From contig JARGOK010000001.1 in NCBI GenBank assembly GCA_029233985.1, positions 619,096 through 683,095 of the forward strand: 64,000 nt of DNA, written 5' to 3'. Position numbers and translations under genes: made by a program. The stretch is from Candidatus Altimarinota bacterium. GTDB lineage: Bacteria > Patescibacteriota > Gracilibacteria > JAUYGZ01. This document shows positions 14,394 to 53,901 of this stretch, one piece after another. Under the pieces are notes generated by a model. It had not been told where the DNA came from. It searched no databases and saw only the letters and a list, made by a program, of their open reading frames with translations. Position 1 is the first letter of the stretch. Every line of letters starts with the position of its first letter.

Positions 14394-17300
14394 ATGTCAT
14401 CCGTCGTTACACTCTGTGAGCTTCTCCAAGAACAACCAGCCCTTCTCAAGCGCTTTCATAAGGAGTTTCCGTCTCTGACAAAAGTCTCAACTCAACGGAC
14501 CGCCCGCGTACAAACTCGAATTGAGCTCAGTGCCGAACAGAAACAGCATATTCACGAACTCTTATTGGCAAATAATGGAGACCGAATCACACGTGAGCAG
14601 CTCAAGCAGGGGCACCTTTTTGAGATCGCCTACCAGCCAGCAGTTCAAGACCCTGAGCATATTGCGATTGAGAAAATTTTGAAAACGAATGGATATGATG
14701 ATTTGGTCGAAAAAGTGAAAATGGCAACGATCTATGTGTTTGAAGGTATTACAGAGCACGAAGCAGAAACTTTGGTTCGAGAGTACCTCTTCAATGGTTT
14801 ACTTCATGTCATTCACAAAGATGACTTTGATCCTGAGTCGCTTAGTATTGATACAAAAGCGGAGCCGACCCAAATCATCGAAGGGTTTCGAGATTTAAAC
14901 CTCAGAGAACTCAAAGAACTCAGTGAGACCCGGAGTTTGTATATGGAGGATCACTATTTATTAGAAACCCAACGGAAATTCAAAGAGGAATATGACCGAG
15001 ACCCCACCGATGCAGAGCTAGAGTATTTGGCACAGCGAACATCTGACCATTGTTTTCACACGACTTGGAAATCACTTGGGCTCTTCAAGCATTTGAAAGG
15101 AAGCGTGGACAAAGTTCTTCCGAATCGACCAGATATTGTTTCGGTCTTTGTGGACAACTCGGGAGTGATGGCAGCAGGAGGAGACACCACCTATATGATC
15201 AAAGGAGAAACTCACAACAGCCCAACAGCAATTGCTCCAGTAGGTGGAGTGGAGACAATGCATGGAGGATGCCTCAGAGATATCATTGGAACTGGACAAG
15301 GTGGGTACCCGACCATGGCGACTCAGGTTTTTGTGGTGGGAAGCCAAACAAAAGAAGAGATGGGAGAGGATTATGAAGTGGAGAAATTTTTAGATCCCTT
15401 AGTGATTCTCAGAGGAATGGTTGATGGAGTTCAGAATTATGGAAACCCAATGGGGATACCAAACTTTGGTGGACGTGTCTTCCTACACCCGAAATTTTTT
15501 GGAAAACCATTGGCTTTAGGAATTTGTTTAGGAACAGGAAAGAAAGGGCTTTCGAATATTGGGACTCCGAAAACTGGGGATATTGCCCTTTTGATCGGAG
15601 CCTCTACAGGTCGTGATGGGATTCATGGAGCGACCATGAGTAGTGCTGCGAATACTGAGGAAACGGTGAAAAAAGAAGGAGCTGCTGTGCAGATCGGAGA
15701 TCCGTATACCGAACGCCTCTTTATGGAAGCGACCCCTGAGCTGCGACATCTTATGCGAGCCTATGGGGACTTGGGAGCAGGAGGTATTGCTTCGTGTTTT
15801 GGAGAGATGGCAGAAGGAGTTGGACTGGATATTGATTTGGAACATATTCCTGTAAAATACCAGGGACTCTCGCCTTGGGAAAAACTCGAATCTGAATCTC
15901 AAGAACGAATGGGGATGGCGGTAGCTCCAGAAAACCTCGCAGAAGTGAAAAAGATTTTGACGCATCATGAAGTGCCGTTTTTTGAACTGGGAGTATTTGC
16001 TGACCATAATAAATTTGTGGTGAAGCATGGAACTGAGACCATAGTGGATTTGGATTATGAATGGCTGGAAGGATTTCCGATTCCAAAAAAAGAAGTGAGT
16101 GAATTTTTTCCTGATACTCACAATGTCTTTCTTACAAGAGATTCTCCTAACAAAGAAACGTTTCTGAATCTTTTAGTACAACCAGAACTTGCGGATCAAT
16201 CCATCTTCACTAGAAGATGGGATAGCACCGTCCAAGGAAAAACCCTGAGAGAATCATGTGCACCATTTACCAATATGCCATACGACCAAGGAATCGTTGT
16301 TCCAGATCCAGACTCTGGGGAAACACAAGTTCTTAGTTTGTGCGTGAATCCTTGGTGGGCTGGAAACCCAGCGAATATGGCTCGAGCGACTTTTGCTGGT
16401 GCAGTTTCTAAGCAAATCGCAGCAGGAGTGAAGAGAAATAATATTGCAATGTGTGATAATTTCTATACTCCAAAAAGTCGAGACAAAGTCGACTTTGACC
16501 TCACGCAAATGGTGTATGCCATTACTGATATGATGGAATTTCTCGATACACCTGCAATCTCTGGAAAGGATTCCTCTAGCGGGACAACTAAGATGACCAA
16601 GAAGAATGATGGGATGATTGAGAACTTTGAGATTGCTCCGACGATTTGCATGTCCGCAATGGGTATGGGGGCAGACGCTATGAAGGTCGTACCGAAGGAA
16701 TTCCAAAAAGCAGGTAATAAACTGTTCTTTATTCCTGCTGGGATTGTAAATGATGCCAGTGGATCATACTTGGTATCCGAAAAAGAACGTATGGAACAGT
16801 TTAATTATCAGATCAACTTGGAAGAATATCGTAAGACTATTGATCGATTGAGTGAAGTGATTGAATCTGGAAAAATCAAAGCGATCTCAGTGATAGATGA
16901 TGGAGGGATATTTCACCGATTATTTGAAATGATGCTGGGAAGTGAGAAAGGTATCGATATTACTTTCAAGCATGAGTACTTTACTGAAAAAATGACCGGA
17001 GCCCTCCCAGGAGCATTTCTTGTAGAAACAGAATCTCAAGATCATCTTGAAGGGATTGAATGTCAGGAAATTGGAGTTGTTATTAATGAGCCACTCATGA
17101 ATAACATTATTGAAGGAGAAAGTATCTCATTGAAAAAAATGAAACAGGTCTGGCAGAAACCTTGGTACGATATTTTAAAACTTCCACATGAAGTGCAAGA
17201 CACACCTGCGCCTACCAACCCTCTCCCCTTTACTCCAAGCACAGTGAATAAGAAAAAAGTTTCGGTCGTATACACGACAGGGACAAACAACCACAATGAA

Positions 17301-20800: not shown

Positions 20801-21315
20801 AAGTTCACTTTAGATATGTCGGTATCATACCTTGAAAAATCTCCTCTGGCGAGAATAGAAGAAGCAGAGAGACGAAAGACAACAAGGGTGCCTATTTTTT
20901 GTGTGGGAGACAAATCATTTGGCTTCATCTCACGTCTCTCTGCAAAGTCAAGATTGGATTGGGAAATTTTTCTCCTTTCTAGGGTATCCGATCATAACTT
21001 GCGCGCATTATAAACTACAAATACATATGTGCAAGTTTTTGCTAAAAAAAGCCCAGACGTATAATAAGAATATTGCCCTCGTAAGGACCTGTGTATACGC
21101 CTGTGCTCTTTGAATTTTTTGTTCCACTTAAAGGAACCTAAGATCATTGTAACTGAGGCTACATATTGATCGAGTCTTCTCGCTTCCCAATCACCAGAAA
21201 TGATGTTCAGAAAGCGAGAGACAATCAGGACAAATACTGAAAAGGCGATATCAGTATGTTTTTGATGTCTCTCATCGATTTTTTTTAGTGCAAAAATCGA
21301 GAAAAACTAAGATGA
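20801..21315. other. 515-bp gap, possible decayed reading frame
   Basis: No convincing gene is present. On the minus strand a frame without stops runs from 21306 to a TGA at 20994-20992 (about 104 codons) but has no ATG near its start. Its translation contains a plausible membrane-like stretch (SVFVLIVSRFLNIISGDWEA). It could be the remnant of a gene that once followed the antiporter, or chance. The short plus-strand frames here are not supported by a promoter or protein-like composition. Confidence 0.3.
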
Positions 21316-22881
21316 TCAACCTATACTTGGCAACAGCCAAATACAGGCCATCGCAACTAGCGTTGGAATAAACGCAGCCTTAAAGAGTCCAACTGCCGTT
21401 ATGCCCTCCTCAAAACTCTTGCCGAGAATAGAATTCCCAGCAGGATTTGGCGCATTTGCCATAACGGTGAGACCACCACCTGACACTGCCCCTGCCACCA
21501 AAGCAAATCTTGCACTCTCTGACAATCCCTCAATGAGGGTTCCCAGATAGGTAAGCGCTGCATTGTCTGTTATTGCAGTAAGGCTAGTAGCCCCAACAAA
21601 TAAGGTAAGATCATCCATCTTTTCTAGAATTGGCTGAAGCCACCATGCCTGAAACCCCCCAAGGGTTACAAGCCCTCCAAGGAAAAACCCGACCAAAATC
21701 GGCCCTTTCAGCTCAGGAGGTTTTTGATATTCCTGTGTTACCTGGACTAGTCCCAAGAAGAACAAAAATGCTGCTATAAAAATCACCATATGGTGATTGA
21801 AATAGACAGCAACTGCCAGGAATACTATGTGACATAGTGTGAGCCACCATGTCACTGGCATAAGACTACTTTCTTCTTGCTCATCTTTTTTCTTGCTTTT
21901 ACGAACAAGCTGTTTGCGCTTTTTACGACTCAGAGTTGGATCAAAAGCTATCACAGTACTTTGTGACAGACTTTCTAATTCATCCTTAAACAGTAAGGCT
22001 ACCATTAGGGTATTCAAGACTACCGCAATGGCTGCCTTGTACCCAAATGAGCCGATCATGTCTGACATTCCCCACCCCCACTTTGCAGCCACCATAAGTA
22101 CTGGTGGTGCTGCGAAATGTGATAGAGTCCCTCCAATTGAGATGTTCACGAACAATATTCCTAAAGTGGCATACTTGAGCTTTTCAGAGATACCTTTTGA
22201 ATAATATCTCTTCAATAGAAGAAGGGCCGTGACGGTCATTGCCGCCGGCTCTGTAATAAATGAACCCAAAAGAGGTCCAAGTATCAACGCTGACACATAA
22301 AATGCCCGCGCTTCCCCCATCGGGAGCAGCTTACTCGCTTTTTCTATTACTGTTTCAGCAAGCTCCAGTATTGGCCTCGTTGAGGCCATTGCCATCACGA
22401 CGAAAACGAACACAGGCTCGATGAAGTTTATTTCTTTTCCCTTAAGTTTTCCTTCGAGGTAGCCCACGGCTACCTCGATACCTTCGACATAAAAAATGCC
22501 GAAAAAAAATACGGCAGCCCATAGTCCGAAAACTACTTCTGCCTCACCTAAGAAATGATAGAGGTTTTCCCGAATTGAGCCTTCAGGGTGATTATGGGCT
22601 AGCTTATTAAACCAGCCTGTTAAAAACAGGGTGTGAACGATAGCAATGACAAACAATGCCCTTGCCATTTGCTGCACTGTCATTAAGTGGTGAATTTTCA
22701 ACTCTTCATGACTATGTGCATCACCTGCAAATACCACTCCTACAAAAAAGAATAGTATGGCAATAGCCATGCCAAGTGGCTTCCATAATTGTTTCAAAGT
22801 TTTTTCCTCCCACCGCCAAAAAGACGGCTTGTAAATTTTAAAGCTGTGTTCTGGACGAAGATGCCGAGAAAACTCAGACAT
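21316..22881 (-). CDS. putative Na+/H+ antiporter (Na_H_antiport_3-like)
   Basis: A polytopic inner-membrane protein of 521 residues with about 11-13 predicted helices. It resembles the putative Na+/H+ antiporter family of the ion-transporter superfamily. Recognisable parts are the polar membrane segments around STRPILELAETVIEKAS, GSFITEPAAMTVTALLLL, and the C-terminal TSLTAITDNAALTYLG with AGAVSGGGLTVMANAPNPAG, a signature close to the NhaD/ArsB-like fold. A charged cytoplasmic loop (ESSLMPV upstream, Lys/Arg-rich) lies in the middle. The gene has a long structured leader (22882-23100), suggesting RNA-level control by an ion or other signal. The exact substrate is not proven. Confidence 0.8.
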   Translation of the reverse strand: MSEFSRHLRPEHSFKIYKPSFWRWEEKTLKQLWKPLGMAIAILFFFVGVVFAGDAHSHEELKIHHLMTVQQMARALFVIAIVHTLFLTGWFNKLAHNHPEGSIRENLYHFLGEAEVVFGLWAAVFFFGIFYVEGIEVAVGYLEGKLKGKEINFIEPVFVFVVMAMASTRPILELAETVIEKASKLLPMGEARAFYVSALILGPLLGSFITEPAAMTVTALLLLKRYYSKGISEKLKYATLGILFVNISIGGTLSHFAAPPVLMVAAKWGWGMSDMIGSFGYKAAIAVVLNTLMVALLFKDELESLSQSTVIAFDPTLSRKKRKQLVRKSKKKDEQEESSLMPVTWWLTLCHIVFLAVAVYFNHHMVIFIAAFLFFLGLVQVTQEYQKPPELKGPILVGFFLGGLVTLGGFQAWWLQPILEKMDDLTLFVGATSLTAITDNAALTYLGTLIEGLSESARFALVAGAVSGGGLTVMANAPNPAGNSILGKSFEEGITAVGLFKAAFIPTLVAMACIWLLPSIG

Positions 22882-23100
22882 TCGACAGGCCCGAGAAATA
22901 CGGGCAGCTTTGCTTCAAACACGACTTTTAAGATTTCCTAGCACACTCCACAACGGAGTGTTTTCACCAGAGAATCAAACAACTAACTCTGCGAGCTAAC
23001 TCTTTGATTCTCTGGTTGAGAGATTTTTTGTCCTGATTGTCAAGGTTCTTCGAACGCCAGGGAGGCGAACAAAAAGGCCCTATTCAAGCGAATAGGAGCC
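22882..23100 (-). ncRNA. structured 5' leader of the antiporter gene (candidate riboswitch)
   Basis: About 220 nt upstream of the antiporter ATG can fold into five hairpins in a row: 23076-23100 (CCTATTC/GAATAGG, followed on the minus strand by five U); 23045-23070 (CGCC/GGCG with GTT/AAC); a perfect 14-bp stem 22966-22979 with 23003-23016 around a 23-nt loop holding two CTAACTCT copies; 22943-22961 (ACACTCC/GGAGTGT); and 22889-22905 (GCCCG/CGGGC) just before the start codon. I could not match it to a known riboswitch consensus. The first hairpin with its U-run may instead be the terminator of the upstream fic gene. Confidence 0.55.
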
Positions 23101-23103
23101 GTT

Positions 23104-23131
23104 ATTATACTTTGAACTTTGAAAAAATCAA
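23104..23131 (-). promoter_or_regulatory. probable promoter of the antiporter transcript
   Basis: On the minus strand TTGATT (23131-23126), 16 bp and TATAAT (23109-23104). Transcription would begin near 23098, inside the first leader hairpin, so part of that hairpin's stem would be lost from this transcript. Confidence 0.55.
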
Positions 23132-36705: not shown

Positions 36706-36767
36706 GGACTTTTCCTTCTTCTCCCGTATGAGAAAGGGTATACTTTGCCCACTCTTTGCGCATTATT

Positions 36768-37472
36768 ATGGATCAACAAACCTTTCATACTGCTGATGTC
36801 ATCTCCAACGAATCGGTGGGAGAACATGTCAGATACCTAGTAATCACCCCCCCAACCTCTTTTGAGTACCACCCGGGACAGTTTTTTATCCTGCGTCTGC
36901 GTGATGCCAATGGAGAAAACGTCGAACGGTCGTACTCTGCTGCGAATTGGGATGACAGTGGACAACTCCAGTTTGTGGTGCGCATTGAAGAACATGGCCA
37001 GATGTCGAGCTTGATCGATAAACTGGAAAATGGAGATCAAATAGACATTAAAGGGCCTTTTGGTCGTTTCGGAGATGTGCCGGATGACACGAAGAAACTT
37101 ATTTTGATAGCGGGAGGTGTGGGTATCTCCCCTATTCGAGGGATCTTGCAAAAAACCGTGAAAAACCAAGATGATTTTCCAGTGCAGGTCTTTTACGGGT
37201 TTCGAACTGGTGATGATTTTTTGTTTCAAGATGAGATTATGACGGCTGCTGAAGCAGAACGCGTTTCAGTTATTCCTGCTATTAGCGAAGCGGATGCGGA
37301 GTGGACGGGAAACACAGGGTACATTCATGAATCATTGGAAGGAACAGTTGTTGAACCAGGAGAAGGAGTTCATGCGTATATTTGTGGACCGCCACCAATG
37401 GTCAAGGCTGCACGGCAAAAATTGTACGATCTTGGTTTTGAAAGAGGAGCTGTGCATGTGGAGGCTTGGTAG
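36768..37472 (+). CDS. ferredoxin-reductase-like FAD/NAD(P)-binding oxidoreductase
   Basis: A 234-residue flavoprotein of the FNR superfamily. It has the FAD-binding RSYSAAN motif, an isoalloxazine-facing GPFGRF, the NAD(P)-binding GGVGISP, and the C-terminal CGPPPMV found in ferredoxin and oxygenase reductases. No iron-sulfur domain is fused, so it probably passes electrons to a separate ferredoxin such as the one at 19175. The track frame begins at a TTG at 36756. The ATG at 36768 is chosen because TATACT (36739-36744) sets the likely transcription start close by. Confidence 0.92.
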   Translation: MDQQTFHTADVISNESVGEHVRYLVITPPTSFEYHPGQFFILRLRDANGENVERSYSAANWDDSGQLQFVVRIEEHGQMSSLIDKLENGDQIDIKGPFGRFGDVPDDTKKLILIAGGVGISPIRGILQKTVKNQDDFPVQVFYGFRTGDDFLFQDEIMTAAEAERVSVIPAISEADAEWTGNTGYIHESLEGTVVEPGEGVHAYICGPPPMVKAARQKLYDLGFERGAVHVEAW

Positions 37473-48070: not shown

Positions 48071-48115
48071 AGTATGATGTCTTTATACAATATGATCTTT
48101 TTCTGGAGAAAAATA

Positions 48116-51100
48116 ATGGCTCTAATACGTCGAAGAACAGCTTTTATCGCAGGGATCACTGCCCTATTTCTAATGTCACTCGTCGGTCAAAAACTTGATA
48201 TCCAAAATATCTGGGCAGCTCCAGGTGATACTTTTCGGGTAAGCGAATACTTTTTGAGCTCAGGAACTTATACTGGAACAGCACACAATCTTATGCTTGA
48301 TCAGGACCTCACGAATAATTACTTTGTCATTATTCAAGGAAGCGATGGAGATACGACTAGCAATAATGACCGTGGGCCAGATGAAAACTATGTAGCCCTC
48401 TCTGCTGATCCCTTTGGAAGCGGTGATCTTCCTGTATCAGCTGGAACGAATGTTCTTGGCCTCACAAGGAATAATTCTGTGAATTCATGGGTGGGAGTAG
48501 TGACTGTCATAGAATGTGTAACAGACTGCAACAATACAGGTTTCAAACTATTGGATGTCCAACAGGTGATCTCCAATGGCGTTACAACATCTGGAAATGA
48601 CACCTCAGACACCAACTGGTCGGATATCAATCAGGTTATGCTTATGGGAGGATTTAACGGTGCAGGATGCCACACGGCTGAGAGCAGCTCTGCAAACTCG
48701 AAAGTATGCCACACACGTTTTTTTCCTTCTGGGAGCAACTTAATCAACTGGTCGAGAAATAATGCAGGCGCAACTCTTTCGACCTCTACGAGCACTGTCA
48801 TGGTGCTGGAATGGGGAGCCGAATGGAATGTACAGAGAGTGAACGTGACAGGGACAGCTGGAGGAAATGGGGCAAATACTCCAGGAGAGTACAATACTGC
48901 TGTTATCAATTCTGTTGCTCGAGAAAATACTTGGGTCTGGGGAACAGGCCACACGACTGACCAGGGAATTGGAGATGCTGCAGAAGGAACGATTATCACT
49001 CTCGGAAATGGTGTGGATACCAATCCGAACGAAGCAACAGTTGCCATTGGACAAGAATATAATGATACGAAGAATTTTGAAGTGTATGCTCTCACCCATG
49101 AGGACCTCTTGGTCGATTATCGGTTTAAAACCGATGGTGATGTCAATGCCCTTACTTTTGATCAATCGGTAAATGTGGCCAATGATGGCTCTGCTCGAAT
49201 GGCCTTGTCGTACAATGGACTGAATGGGACAGGGAATGCCTATCCTCGTCCTCACTTCTCCGCTCGCTATACTTCAAACAATACAATTCGCCTCGAACGA
49301 AGGCGTTTTGGACAAAACTTCCCAGCCTGGATTCAGGGAATTGATTTTTCGAATATAGTACCTGGAGTCGACCTTTCGACCTCGACCAAAACAGATAATG
49401 ATGTCGACAACAACATCGTACCTGGCCAAACGATCACCTACTCTATCACTCTCATCAACTCAGGACTAGTGAACGCGACTGGGTTGGATATCGATGATGT
49501 AGTCAATACCAACCTTGAAAATGTGGATGTTCAGAGTATTACAAATTGTGGAGGAGCTCTTACCGACAACTCCACAGCAGCTGCAATAAATATTGATAAT
49601 GCTGATGTGAATGTTGGAGTCAACTGCGTTGTTGTCTTCACTGCTGATGTAAAAGCAGGTCTTGGAGGTGGGACTCTCATCCCAAATACTGCTCAAATAA
49701 GTGCTTCGAATGAAGGGAGTGCTGCCTTCAGTCTCAACTCTCCGAACCTAATGGTAAATGCCAACAGTGACCTTGAAGTGACTATTACAGCAGATCAGGC
49801 AGAAGTAGCGAAGAATGCCCCCTTAGAATACACCATTACCGTTACGAACAATGGTCCATCAGATACGACGAATGTTACCATCAGTGATGTCTTACCGAGT
49901 GGCGTGAGCTTTGACTCTTCACTGGCGAGCCAAGGAGCCTTTGATGAGAATACCGGACTCTGGACAGTGGGAATTCTTTTGAATGGAAACACTGCAACTC
50001 TCAAGATCAATGTCACTTCTGATGATGACGCTGGTGCTTCGGTGACAAATACTGCTGCCCTCAATCTCTCCATTCCAGCTGATTTTAACATTGCAAATAG
50101 TGTGGATAGCGTCATGACTCTTATTACCGGGGGTGGCTCTAGTGGTGGAGGTGGTGGACGGAGAAATAGCTTTGGAATCTGTGGGAACGGAAAGAATGAA
50201 GCAAATGAACAGTGTGATGATGGGAATATCGAAAGTGGAGATGGGTGTAGTTCGAGCTGTCAGATGGAATTGGAAGTATCCTTTCTTGACAATCTTGCAA
50301 ACTCTGCCCCATCGGCCGAAGTGACACCAGAGCTAATTGAAGCACCTGAAATTGATCCTGCAATTGAACTTGAGACAACGCTACTTTTCACTGACCAAAC
50401 CTGCACTGATGACCCACGCTACAATGTCCCAGACAGTGGCGAACGATGCCTAATGTATGACGAGGAACGCCCCCTACTCTTCTCGGATATCGAGAACTTG
50501 GGAGCAACCGCAGACACCATAAATACACTGAAAAACACCCAGATAAAGACAACCGGTGAATACGTTTTTAGTGGTTCTGGAAATCACTCCAGTGGAAATG
50601 AAGAAGGAGTCTTTTCCGAAGGAGACTGGCCTTTCAGTCCCCTTTCAAATGTCAGTCGGATCGAAGTGGTCAAAACCCTCATGATCACGAATTGTCTACC
50701 GATTGCAGATAAAATCCCTGCCCCGAGAGATGAATTCCGATTCAAAGATATACCACAGTCGATTCCACCATCAGATGAAATGATGCACTATACGGCTCGC
50801 GTCATGTATAGCGCTTATCTCCACGGAGTCATTACAGGATACGAAGATGGTATGGCTCGTCCTTTTGAACCCGCGAGTTTTGCAGAAGTCATCACTATGC
50901 TGACGAGAGCGTCACATGTGATCCCAAATGATTACGCCATTTCAGATGCGAATTGGTACCGTGGGTCACTAGAATTTGTAAAAAAGAATAATATTCGCAA
51001 AGGGATTGGCAATGGCCTGAAGGATCCGGTTTCACGTGAAGACTATGCAACGATGCTCATGCGAATCATGGCATTTAATCCAAACCCTGAGGTTTTTGGA

Positions 51101-51205
51101 TATGTCCAAGAACTTCATGGGAAAACTACTCCTCCACAACGTGACTTGAGCTCTTTTGACCAACGACCAGAACAGTGCCAGTACATTAGCCCCAAAGCAG
51201 ATTAA
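48116..51205 (+). CDS. SLH-type surface protein with DUF11 and Cys-rich DUF4215 modules, 1029 aa
   Basis: A signal peptide (1-34, ending NIWAAP) is followed by a large beta-rich N-terminal domain (to about 400). Two DUF11-like domains follow (about 415-670, with TITVTNNGPSDTTNVTISDVLP). Next is a Gly/Ser hinge and a DUF4215 Cys-rich module (CGNGKNEANEQCDDGN, then GDGCSSSCQ, near 686-718). The C-terminal third is an SLH-type anchoring block (about 760-1010) with TLKNTQI, GNHSSG and FRFKDIP that clearly matches the duplicated block of the 2352-residue protein. The ATG at 48116 is chosen from the promoter and a GGAG ribosome-binding site. Its 3' end overlaps the convergent TrmB-family gene by 20 bp. 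Confidence 0.9.
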   Translation: MALIRRRTAFIAGITALFLMSLVGQKLDIQNIWAAPGDTFRVSEYFLSSGTYTGTAHNLMLDQDLTNNYFVIIQGSDGDTTSNNDRGPDENYVALSADPFGSGDLPVSAGTNVLGLTRNNSVNSWVGVVTVIECVTDCNNTGFKLLDVQQVISNGVTTSGNDTSDTNWSDINQVMLMGGFNGAGCHTAESSSANSKVCHTRFFPSGSNLINWSRNNAGATLSTSTSTVMVLEWGAEWNVQRVNVTGTAGGNGANTPGEYNTAVINSVARENTWVWGTGHTTDQGIGDAAEGTIITLGNGVDTNPNEATVAIGQEYNDTKNFEVYALTHEDLLVDYRFKTDGDVNALTFDQSVNVANDGSARMALSYNGLNGTGNAYPRPHFSARYTSNNTIRLERRRFGQNFPAWIQGIDFSNIVPGVDLSTSTKTDNDVDNNIVPGQTITYSITLINSGLVNATGLDIDDVVNTNLENVDVQSITNCGGALTDNSTAAAINIDNADVNVGVNCVVVFTADVKAGLGGGTLIPNTAQISASNEGSAAFSLNSPNLMVNANSDLEVTITADQAEVAKNAPLEYTITVTNNGPSDTTNVTISDVLPSGVSFDSSLASQGAFDENTGLWTVGILLNGNTATLKINVTSDDDAGASVTNTAALNLSIPADFNIANSVDSVMTLITGGGSSGGGGGRRNSFGICGNGKNEANEQCDDGNIESGDGCSSSCQMELEVSFLDNLANSAPSAEVTPELIEAPEIDPAIELETTLLFTDQTCTDDPRYNVPDSGERCLMYDEERPLLFSDIENLGATADTINTLKNTQIKTTGEYVFSGSGNHSSGNEEGVFSEGDWPFSPLSNVSRIEVVKTLMITNCLPIADKIPAPRDEFRFKDIPQSIPPSDEMMHYTARVMYSAYLHGVITGYEDGMARPFEPASFAEVITMLTRASHVIPNDYAISDANWYRGSLEFVKKNNIRKGIGNGLKDPVSREDYATMLMRIMAFNPNPEVFGYVQELHGKTTPPQRDLSSFDQRPEQCQYISPKAD

Positions 51206-51917
51206 AAAAAGATTGATGGCTTTTTGCGAGAGATGAATTGTAGATCTCAACAGCTGAAAGGTCTGATTTTCCAAAAGAAATGAGAAAAATCTTTTCTTTG
51301 CAGATAATCATATCGGACTGCAGATCTGTCCCCAATGGCAAAACTTTCATTTGATGCCGTTCAGATTCAAATTTCTCCATGTATTCGTGAGCTACTGCAT
51401 TGTCTACAAGAAGCTCGCGCGCCTTTCCTCCTTGTTTTTTGAGAGCTTGAGGAATTTTTTCGTAATATTGCGGCATCACTTCTTTCATCAGCTGAGCATT
51501 AAAAAGTGCTGAGAAGGATTCTTCCTTGAGCACTTGTTCGTACATCTGCATCACTTTGTCTTTACCTTCGAATAATTTCGTCTTGGGCGTCATTGTCAGC
51601 TTTTTTTGGAGTAATTCGAGCTCAGGGAGCTTTTCTTTGAAGTGAATCATCGTTTGGTCAAGACTTCTTTTGCGGGCATTAATGACATTTTCAATTTCCG
51701 AAACATCTACTGTTTTAAAGTACTTCACTCCAGATCGTTCGAATTCTTCAACAAGACCCAGGTTTTCAAGAGCCTGAAGAATCAAATACATGGTCGATCG
51801 AGGCGTACCGATATGCTTGGCTATTACGCTAGCAGGCTGAGCACCGAGTTCTAATAATCGGAGATATGTCTCTCCTTCATTTTTTTTGGCCCCGAGATCT
51901 CTGAGGAAGTCTTTCAT
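51186..51917 (-). CDS. TrmB-family transcriptional regulator
   Basis: A 243-residue cytoplasmic DNA-binding protein. The N-terminal winged helix (about 1-75; GAKKNEGETYLRLLELG, then PRSTMYLILQALENLGLV) is the TrmB type. A coiled-coil linker (80-110) and a C-terminal ligand-binding-like domain with phospholipase-D-like fold features (about 115-243) follow. In Archaea the family controls sugar uptake and metabolism, and in CPR bacteria the ligand is generally unknown. An inverted repeat just upstream of its start (51924-51959) suggests autoregulation. It is divergent from nothing and lies directly downstream of the ncRNA terminator. Confidence 0.85.
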   Translation of the reverse strand: MKDFLRDLGAKKNEGETYLRLLELGAQPASVIAKHIGTPRSTMYLILQALENLGLVEEFERSGVKYFKTVDVSEIENVINARKRSLDQTMIHFKEKLPELELLQKKLTMTPKTKLFEGKDKVMQMYEQVLKEESFSALFNAQLMKEVMPQYYEKIPQALKKQGGKARELLVDNAVAHEYMEKFESERHQMKVLPLGTDLQSDMIICKEKIFLISFGKSDLSAVEIYNSSLAKSHQSFFNLLWG

Positions 51918-51923
51918 GGCTTT

Positions 51924-51959
51924 TGTCAGTTAATATCAACATGTCGTATTTTACTGACA
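51924..51959. promoter_or_regulatory. inverted repeat (candidate operator) before the TrmB-family gene
   Basis: TGTCAGT (51924-51930) and ACTGACA (51953-51959) are perfect inverted repeats separated by 22 bp. They lie between a possible minus-strand promoter (TTGAAT, 16 bp, TAAAAT) and the ATG at 51917, as an autoregulatory operator would. Confidence 0.5.
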
Positions 51960-51976
51960 TTTTGTAAATATTCAAA

Positions 51977-52435
51977 TAAAAAAAACACCAACCGTAATCG
52001 ATTGGTGTGCTTTAGCCTTCCCGAGTCTCCTAGAGTCCTTTCGTACGTCAGCGCCCATTGCTGGGACAGAAATGAAGGGAATGATTCTTCGCTTCTCATG
52101 CCTTTGGTCACCCGCTGGCAAAACCGGCCGCTATTCTTACTCTTTCAAATACTAAACCCAGATTTGAGGAGCTTGAATGGCTGTCAGATATATGTTTTGG
52201 GTGCACATATCTTCTTGTCTTAATTGCGCTCTAGAAAGCTTGGGAAGAAGCTGGTAGGAAAGAGGTTGATTCGGAGCCTATGACCAATGTCTCATAATGA
52301 AACAGAGTCTCATTATTTTGACTGGCTTAGTACTTCGATGAGAATCTTCCACACAAGGCTTCAGATCCTACAGTCAACACTTCTTCCAACCAGCTTGCTT
52401 CCAAGCTATTTTTTTACGCCGTTTGTTTCAAGGTT
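51977..52435 (-). ncRNA. candidate novel structured non-coding RNA, ~460 nt
   Basis: This gene-sized stretch has no convincing reading frame but has its own promoter (TTGACT, 17 bp, TATTAT; 52470-52442) and an intrinsic terminator (10-bp stem 51985-51994 with 51999-52008, loop TAAT, then a run of about nine U). A long-range helix pairs 52249-52260 with 52384-52395 (11 of 12 pairs). It encloses a stem 52318-52324 with 52371-52377 and a hairpin 52294-52300 with 52310-52316. Further hairpins are 52187-52196 with 52205-52212 and 52145-52150 with 52162-52167. It lacks tmRNA, RNase P, SRP, 6S and T-box hallmarks that I can recognise. Confidence 0.6.
51985..52008 (-). terminator. intrinsic terminator of the ncRNA
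   Basis: ACACCAACCG (51985-51994) pairs with CGATTGGTGT (51999-52008) with one wobble-type mismatch around a TAAT loop. On the minus strand it is followed by a U-run (plus-strand A at 51977-51985). Confidence 0.9.
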
Positions 52436-52441
52436 CATATA

Positions 52442-52470
52442 ATAATAGCAAAGTAAAAGATAAAAGTCAA
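52442..52470 (-). promoter_or_regulatory. promoter of the ncRNA
   Basis: On the minus strand TTGACT (52470-52465), exactly 17 bp, and TATTAT (52447-52442). Predicted transcription start near 52435. Confidence 0.8.
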
Positions 52471-52489
52471 GCATTTAGATAAAGAAAAA

Positions 52490-52908
52490 GAGGGATTATT
52501 GAAGTTTTTATTCTAGCTCAGAAGGTCAATTGGGGAGCAAAAATCGTAAGCGCTGACTTCTGTCTCTGTACTGGAGCCGACATGGGAAGTCTAAAATGGC
52601 CCAACCTCTAGTCCCTTTTTCAGCCACAGGCTGGTCAGCCTCTAGAGGAAAAAGAGCACCACCCCCGTCATGTCATTCAGAGCGGAGCGAAGAACCTTGG
52701 CGATGAGGAACGCACCAACAACGAAGAACCACATCCATGATAAACAGCATGCCCAAACAACAGAGCCGCCAGGACCCCTGTCGGGAAAGATTATCCGTAT
52801 CTCCAACCTACGCTAAAGCTTCGGCAAGCAGGCTGAATGACAGGGGATGGAAGCATGACAAGTTGTTGGTGAAAAATAGGCTAAGTGCCAAGGCAGAGCA
52901 GAGTGTCA
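52490..52908. other. repeat-rich gap of about 420 bp with a strong hairpin
   Basis: No gene is supported. CCTCTAG (52604-52610) can pair with CTAGAGG (52641-52647) around an inner CAGCC-ACA-GGCTG hairpin. Two GTCATT-family units follow: TGTCATTCAGAGCGGAGCGA at 52671-52690, and the oppositely oriented pair CCTACGCTAAAGCTTCGGCA plus GGCTGAATGACAGG near 52796-52843. These are the same style of dispersed repeats as at 3904-4135. The stretch may also hold the terminator of the NrnA-like gene. Confidence 0.4.
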
Positions 52909-53901
52909 TTAGAACATCTGCTCCTCACCTGCCCCACTCACCTTCCATGCCATCTCACGCTGTAGGTTTCCTGGAATACTAAATCCAGCAGCCTTCACAT
53001 GCCCACCACCACCAAATTGAGCTGCGATCGCAGAGACATCCACGTCATCTCGGATAGTTCGAAGAGACCCCTTTACCCGATCTCCTGCTTCTTCGGAGAG
53101 AATCTGAGCGTAAGTAATTCCTGGAACATACTTGAGAAACTCGATCGCTCCGGACACCATGTCTTTATTTGCATCGAGCTCGTGAAGATCTGCCTGTGTC
53201 ACTGCCGAAGTCACCACCCCTTCATCGTTCTTGCTTGCTCTGCTGAGGATACGTCCCCAGAGCTTGAGCTGATTGATTGGCTTGGTATTGAAACAATGCC
53301 TCGAAACTGACGAAAGATCTGCGCCGTACTTGAGCAACTCAGATCCGACATGAAGAGTTTCTGGTGTTGTGTTTTGGTGCATAAAAGACCCCGTATCTGT
53401 ATAGAGACCAGTCAAGAGACAGGTTGCTATCTCACGAGTGAAGATGGCCTTGAAATGCTTAAACAAATAATAGAGCACCTGAGTCGTCGAAGCACTATTG
53501 GTGATGACGAGATTGATCCCAGCATACATCAAATTTGAACTATGATGATCGATATTGATATGACGATCTGACCGGCTAAAGATCTCTGGATGTGTGTCCT
53601 TGAATCCACTGAGCTTTGGGTCTGCGGTGTCAAAGCTGATGATGAGGTCGTACTGCGTATCGTCTATCTCGTGAATCAAATTCTCTACCCCAGGAATAAA
53701 CATCAGTCCATCGGCTGGCGCATTGAAACATGCAATCTCAACATTCTTTCCGAGACCTTTTAAATACCACCAAAATGCCAAAGAAGCCCCCAGAGTATCT
53801 CCATCTGGGTTCTTGTGTGCGATCAGCAGCGTCTTTTGCGAAGCAATGATCTTCTGCTTGATCTGTTCAACGGTGGTCTCGTCGAGCTGAATCATGGTCA
53901 T
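52909..53901 (-). CDS. DHH-family phosphoesterase (NrnA-like oligoribonuclease/pAp phosphatase)
   Basis: The 330-residue protein has the full DHH/DHHA1 layout: NPDGD (motif I), a metal-binding Asp in SFDTAD (II), DHH (III), TDTGSF (IV), and the C-terminal DHHA1 substrate-binding motif GGGGHVKAAGF. NrnA-type enzymes degrade nanoRNAs of two to five nucleotides and dephosphorylate pAp in the cytoplasm, replacing Orn where it is missing. Length (about 310-330) fits NrnA rather than RecJ (over 500). The translation could start at the first or third codon (both Met). Gene stands alone. Confidence 0.9.
   Translation of the reverse strand: MTMIQLDETTVEQIKQKIIASQKTLLIAHKNPDGDTLGASLAFWWYLKGLGKNVEIACFNAPADGLMFIPGVENLIHEIDDTQYDLIISFDTADPKLSGFKDTHPEIFSRSDRHINIDHHSSNLMYAGINLVITNSASTTQVLYYLFKHFKAIFTREIATCLLTGLYTDTGSFMHQNTTPETLHVGSELLKYGADLSSVSRHCFNTKPINQLKLWGRILSRASKNDEGVVTSAVTQADLHELDANKDMVSGAIEFLKYVPGITYAQILSEEAGDRVKGSLRTIRDDVDVSAIAAQFGGGGHVKAAGFSIPGNLQREMAWKVSGAGEEQMF

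Follow-up and report, generated by a model that had tools for sequence, protein, structure and literature searches.

A probable orphan RNA gene that shares its promoter and leader with an undescribed, covarying RNA family of a Gracilibacteria order

Large structured RNAs of bacteria are, to our knowledge, few in number, and a function is lacking for most of those known. OLE, ROOL and GOLLD are bacterial RNAs that are large and structured and contain no reading frame (PMC12286853, PMC10898510), of which OLE has a length of about 600 nt (PMC9723947). The raiA motif RNA, or ModT (RF03072), is a stand-alone structured RNA of 215-260 nt with a housekeeping-type promoter and is reported mostly from Bacillota and Actinomycetota (PMC11706538). 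The RNA gene predicted in the 64,000-nt stretch of DNA analysed here (the window), which belongs to a genome of 1.66 Mb (G000), resembles OLE, ROOL and GOLLD in these general properties and ModT in being a stand-alone structured RNA with a promoter of this type. With its approximately 460 nt it is shorter than OLE and similar in length to tmRNA (RF00023) and RNase P RNA (RF00010). Unlike OLE, ROOL and GOLLD it has no Rfam match, and no full-length homologue of it was found.

No match to Rfam 15 is obtained at the gathering threshold anywhere in the window, SRP RNA and 6S RNA included, and no riboswitch or T-box model matches at the window RNA. The best hit to it in a permissive scan is a miRNA model with an E-value of 0.59 and 18.4 bits, the cut-off being 100, which is a chance match. 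ARAGORN recognises neither a tRNA nor a tmRNA in the window RNA, nor any tRNA-like part. The RNase P RNA of G000 is located at C3:771442-771848 (150 bits) and its tmRNA at C3:814578-815008 (97.6 bits), and since both genes exist elsewhere in the genome, the window RNA is no missed copy of either, and we reject this reading of it. An initial annotation of this DNA had placed the RNA in no recognised family and had not been able to align it with tmRNA, RNase P, SRP, 6S or a T-box leader, and the covariance models now bear this out. The predicted transcription unit and its neighbours are as follows.

52909-53901, minus strand: DHH/DHHA1 (nrnA-like) phosphoesterase gene upstream of the window RNA (Pfam DHH and DHHA1)
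52442-52470, minus strand: sigma-70-type promoter, TTGACT (52470-52465), 17-nt spacer, TATTAT (52447-52442)
52426-52436, minus strand: the 11 nt with which the transcript is predicted to begin, the shared leader GAACCUUGAAA (conserved block ATATGAACCTTGAAA)
51977-52436, minus strand: window RNA gene (predicted), approximately 460 nt, with promoter, terminator and fold and no Rfam match
51977-52008, minus strand: intrinsic terminator, a 10-bp stem (52008-51985) followed by a U-tract
51186-51917, minus strand: TrmB-family regulator gene downstream of the window RNA (Pfam TrmB, E 2.3e-12)

The promoter agrees with the consensus at 10 of 12 bases, carries the TG of an extended -10 element in front of TATTAT and is the top-ranked of seven promoter-like sites in 2 kb, where shuffled sequences yield 2.7. 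The 5' end at 52436 is positioned from the spacing to the -10 element. Six terminator-like sites are found, compared with 1.7 in shuffles. The only open reading frames that run over it encode 61 and 73 amino acids, neither of which has a Pfam match, and a simple partition into open reading frames leaves no intergenic gap in the window longer than the one that holds it (51918-52908). The promoter, the downstream terminator and the lack of a plausible reading frame proposed by the initial annotation are thus all found again. Judged by these motifs the window RNA would be transcribed as a unit of its own, with a predicted length inside the range of 430-520 nt and its own terminator, and it is probably an orphan RNA gene.

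3' of the window RNA terminator, at 51975-51948, the TrmB gene is preceded by its own weak promoter-like site. It is convergent with the gene for a 1043-aa protein with DUF11 repeats and a DUF4215 region (48074-51205), with which it overlaps by 20 bases at its end. About ten TrmB-family regulators are encoded by the 1.66-Mb genome, which is many for its size. The stretch between nrnA and the window RNA promoter (52500-52908) contains dispersed repeats, pieces of which (34-56 bases, 86-93% identity) recur at C3:699605, C3:308552, C3:492577 and C5:11723 of G000, and it includes a GTCATTCAGAGCGGAGCGAAGAA element.

The predicted fold of the whole window RNA has a minimum free energy (MFE) of -140.8 kcal/mol (z -4.0), and none of 100 shuffles is equally stable. 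The excess stability is confined to the 5' half (52207-52436), which reaches z -4.65 on the minus strand, while 238 stretches of 230 nt drawn at random from the window all stay at or above z -4.1. The 3' half shows no excess stability (z -0.09). The elements below describe the structure.

52384-52407, minus strand: inverted repeat I1, 5' arm of the long helix of the 5' domain, pairing with 52237-52260
52237-52260, minus strand: inverted repeat I1, 3' arm of the same helix, 24 nt, 83% complementary (20 of 24 pairs)
52294-52316, minus strand: inverted repeat I7, local hairpin in the 5' domain, 90% complementary and a hairpin in the MFE structure
52017-52035, minus strand: inverted repeat I2, possible alternative long-range arm, pairing with 52229-52247 (15 of 19 pairs)

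The long helix contains the pairing of 52249-52260 with 52384-52395, 11 of 12 pairs, which can be read directly from the sequence and had been singled out in the initial annotation together with two further stems; the helix proves to be part of the 24-nt inverted repeat, and further stems lie at 52294-52303/52307-52316 and 52304-52313/52338-52347. The I2 arm competes with the 52237-52260 arm and is absent from the MFE structure, and a pairing of this kind in 460 nt is by estimate close to chance expectation. Since the 5' half is equally stable on the plus strand (z -4.68), stability alone does not reveal the strand in use, which is indicated instead by promoter, leader and terminator. The earlier proposal of a stable non-coding RNA is supported in part, as a predicted unit that is discrete, non-coding and partly structured and of which strong structure covers only about half. 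Other unusually stable folds of the window are found on the plus strand at 21223-21452 (z -4.1), which overlaps a 515-nt intergenic gap (20801-21315), at 36718-36947 (z -3.6) and at 16281-16515 (z -3.5).

The region that runs from the promoter into the leader (query 10-75, about 66 nt) is 76% identical to C3:76346-76410, the only other blastn match of the window RNA in its own genome. There, TTGACA...TATTATAATATGAACCTTTAAA opens another long intergenic region that ends in strong hairpins and contains a second large RNA, referred to here as the sister RNA. Counterparts are present in all other three available genomes of the order (G001, G002 and G003).

C3:76398-~76920 of G000 (76400-76922 as 1555-2077 of locus L002): sister RNA beside a glycosyltransferase gene
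C75:5567-5990 of G002 (1513-1945 of L010): sister RNA between the NAD synthase and glycosyltransferase genes, as in G000
C7, ~78023-77583 of G001 (1747-1305 of L040), minus strand: sister RNA convergent to a glycosyltransferase gene
C63 of G003 (~1770-1270 of L082), minus strand: sister RNA between clpB and gmk

The sister RNAs are 430-520 nt long and fold with z-scores of -6.9 (G000), -6.0, -5.9 and -5.9. In three genomes they are convergent to the glycosyltransferase gene and in the fourth they occupy the clpB/gmk interval, which makes them look like stand-alone RNAs rather than gene leaders. A covariance model (R1) was derived from the core shared by the sister RNAs of G000, G001 and G002, with the window RNA and G003 left aside, and it finds the fourth member in G003 with 25 bits. 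The core comprises UCCC/GGGA, UGCA/UGCA, CGAGG-GCGUGA-CCUCG and ACGAAAGAACAGUAGGAG. With the G003 member included, 91% of its cells are paired and six pairs are changed on both sides, as in the stem that is CGAGG/CCUCG in one case and CGUCA/UGACG in another around an unchanged GCGUGA loop. In a control in which partner columns were shifted by 1-3 positions the covariation is destroyed. The sister RNA element CGAGG..CCUCGUAAAAA is one that we take to resemble the first pseudoknot of tmRNA.

None of the four sister RNAs has an acceptable Rfam match, at the gathering threshold or permissively. The hit of the G002 member to the miRNA model mir-9201 (E 0.0004, 29.6 bits, cut-off 95.5) is read as a stable hairpin matching a hairpin model, and RF03072 gives no match in permissive scans of either this sister RNA or the window RNA. 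Across 353 genomes of the class, convincing matches occur only in the four members of the order; matches outside it (19-23 bits) are rejected because this score level is expected from searching about 350 genomes and because several of them fall in apparent coding sequence. Three core-pattern matches in IMG/VR likewise look like coding sequence. The sister RNAs are thus an undescribed, covarying RNA family of the order, for which the support is good but not final, as there are only four sequences and the structure was partly derived from the same four. This covarying family is a stronger result than the window RNA itself.

The link between the two RNAs of G000 is their common start. The exact sequence ATATGAACCTTNAAA occurs at two places only in the 1.66 Mb, at the window RNA and at C3:76396, and in both cases it comes just 3' of a -10 element, where a long intergenic region that folds like an RNA begins. 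It is also present at the sister RNAs of G002 and G001, in the latter with one upstream mismatch. The window RNA reproduces exactly the arrangement of a promoter followed by TATGAACCTTNAAA that characterises the members in G000, G001 and G002 and is lost in G003. Outside G000, the combined 25-base pattern of promoter plus leader is found in 84,980 species genomes only at the sister RNAs of the two other genera (G001 and G002), and a pattern scan of IMG/VR for the leader gives no match. The leader block includes the first 11 nt of the transcript, and few stretches of the 5' region of the sister RNAs are preserved as strictly in three genera. The leader could nevertheless belong to the promoter and carry no information about the RNA. 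A role of the leader as an exposed antisense seed was considered and is not supported, its predicted openness being inconsistent between folds and leader-like sites in four genomes being about as frequent as those of a reversed control. Elsewhere in the window, at 23085-23130, TATTATACTTTGAACTTTGAAA resembles a -10 element plus leader (nhmmer E 0.009); a -35 box is not evident there, and the likeness is probably due to chance.

Beyond the leader the resemblance fades. On its RNA strand the window RNA scores at best 4.4 bits with the core model R1 and 3.1 bits with R2, compared with the 25 bits that the G003 member, unseen by R1, obtains with R1. Leader-free profiles find nothing in it, which is a weak test since the full-length profile also missed G003, and pairwise alignment with the sister RNAs outside the leader is near chance. 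The closest likeness to the sister core is the following.

52027-52044, minus strand: ACGAAAGGACUCUAGGAG, 15 of 18 positions identical to ACGAAAGAACAGUAGGAG of the sister core

This likeness is not significant on its own (4.4 bits, E 0.3; alignment p 0.24). In the strand closing the long 5' helix, the window RNA agrees with the G003 RNA at 14 of 15 positions (UACCAGCUUCUUCCC), with a p-value of 0.017 that is uncorrected and comes from one of four comparisons; as a sign of kinship this is suggestive only. Such hints are in keeping with a diverged paralogue and fall short of proof. The layout of leader, long 5' helix and terminator at about 450 nt is like that of the sister RNAs. By promoter and leader (shared with G000, G001 and G002), length class, a long helix after the leader and its own terminator, the window RNA would belong with them; by the covarying core, which it lacks at any significant score, it would not.

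Conservation of the window RNA in related genomes, which the initial annotation had set as a test, is not borne out. Searching 99 related genomes by blastn returns short pieces and no full-length match, and a plasmid collection yields nothing. In G001, nrnA adjoins the same ribosomal-protein operon and is flanked on its other side by a transporter-like gene, with no RNA; in G003 the neighbours of nrnA differ, and in G002 the contig ends inside it. Synteny with nrnA is therefore rejected, the window RNA being absent beside it in G001 and G003, as is synteny with TrmB, for which only distant paralogues of about 25% identity exist. Some of the short matches in other members of the class were inspected: a 20-mer match in G003 sits at the beginning of what looks like a riboflavin-pathway gene, and weak leader matches in relatives fall in apparent coding sequence. 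As far as the data go, the window RNA and its TrmB neighbour are lineage-specific, and as an orphan without conservation the RNA carries limited weight by itself. In other families of the same class (loci L042-L045), in-frame TGA is frequent in apparent genes of several genomes, which judged by eye suggests that TGA is read there as an amino acid; the genome of the window uses the standard code.

We read the window RNA as an RNA gene that is specific to this lineage, acts in trans and is linked to the sister RNAs by its leader, being either a diverged paralogue or an RNA of another kind whose promoter and leader are a duplicate. The explanation that we prefer, with a probability of roughly 45%, is a stand-alone, trans-acting structured RNA gene that arose as a diverged duplicate of the sister family and in which the shared leader is a recognition element. 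The window RNA would be transcribed from 52436 to about 51977 and act in trans as a structured RNA. Promoter, leader GAACCUUGAAA and the long 5' helical domain that follows would mark it as a sister gene of the conserved large RNA in G000, and its most likely history would be duplication of the sister-family gene and divergence of the interior past recognition, leaving a gene that is now lineage-specific. As a common recognition element the leader may be bound by an RNA-binding protein, act as an antisense seed or signal initiation; both RNAs may be expressed together as structured RNA particles. Stand-alone action in trans is favoured for both of them by the position of the sister RNAs, convergent or between unrelated genes, and by the retention of the leader in three genera. 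Against this explanation stand core models, leader-free profiles and alignment outside the leader that all stay at background, a 3' half that shows no excess structure, and predicted folds that do not all leave the leader unpaired.

If an unrelated RNA gene had come under a copy of the sister promoter and leader, it would share control of expression with the sister RNAs and neither structure nor function; this would account for a likeness that is confined to these 66 nt and for the blank core models and profiles. We regard it as unlikely, given that the strictly kept block reaches further into the transcript than a promoter needs and that size and layout are also similar. Distinctly less probable is a pseudogene, that is, a decaying and still transcribed copy of the sister RNA which has lost the conserved core and its function. 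It would fit a lineage-specific locus that adjoins a repeat-rich stretch at a synteny break, and the weak 15-of-18 likeness at 52044-52027 would then be a remnant; yet promoter, leader and terminator are intact, and a 5' half that folds better than all random stretches sampled is unlike a product of decay. The probability is low that the window RNA is a long cis-acting leader of the downstream TrmB-family gene, an attenuator or riboswitch that would switch through the terminator at 52008-51985. In favour of the idea, only 68 nt separate this terminator from the TrmB start on the same strand, and the arms 52237-52260 and 52017-52035 could be alternatives. Against it stand the separate weak promoter-like site after the terminator, the absence of any visible arm competing with the terminator stem, the blank riboswitch and T-box models and the sister RNAs, which have the same start and stand alone, convergent to their neighbour. 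That there is no functional RNA at all, and that an inverted repeat between genes happens by chance to have sequences like a promoter and a terminator, as the equal stability of both strands, the lack of conservation and the repeats next door might suggest, is hardly credible for elements that stand in the right order and spacing, with a promoter and leader like those of a conserved RNA gene.

To return to a duplicated gene with a shared leader, we consider it doubtful, though conceivable, that the window RNA represents a second, fast-diverging class in the same genome in which nothing but the leader is retained; membership in a group of RNAs with a common partner or target would depend on the leader and not on the core. 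The order would then possess an undescribed family of 430-520-nt RNAs with a covarying core, whose leader is strictly kept in one family of the order. Given further members, the sister family with its covarying core would be eligible for description as a new RNA family. Two large RNA genes in each cell of an organism with a reduced genome, with a leader in common but not a core, would offer a handle on what both RNAs bind.
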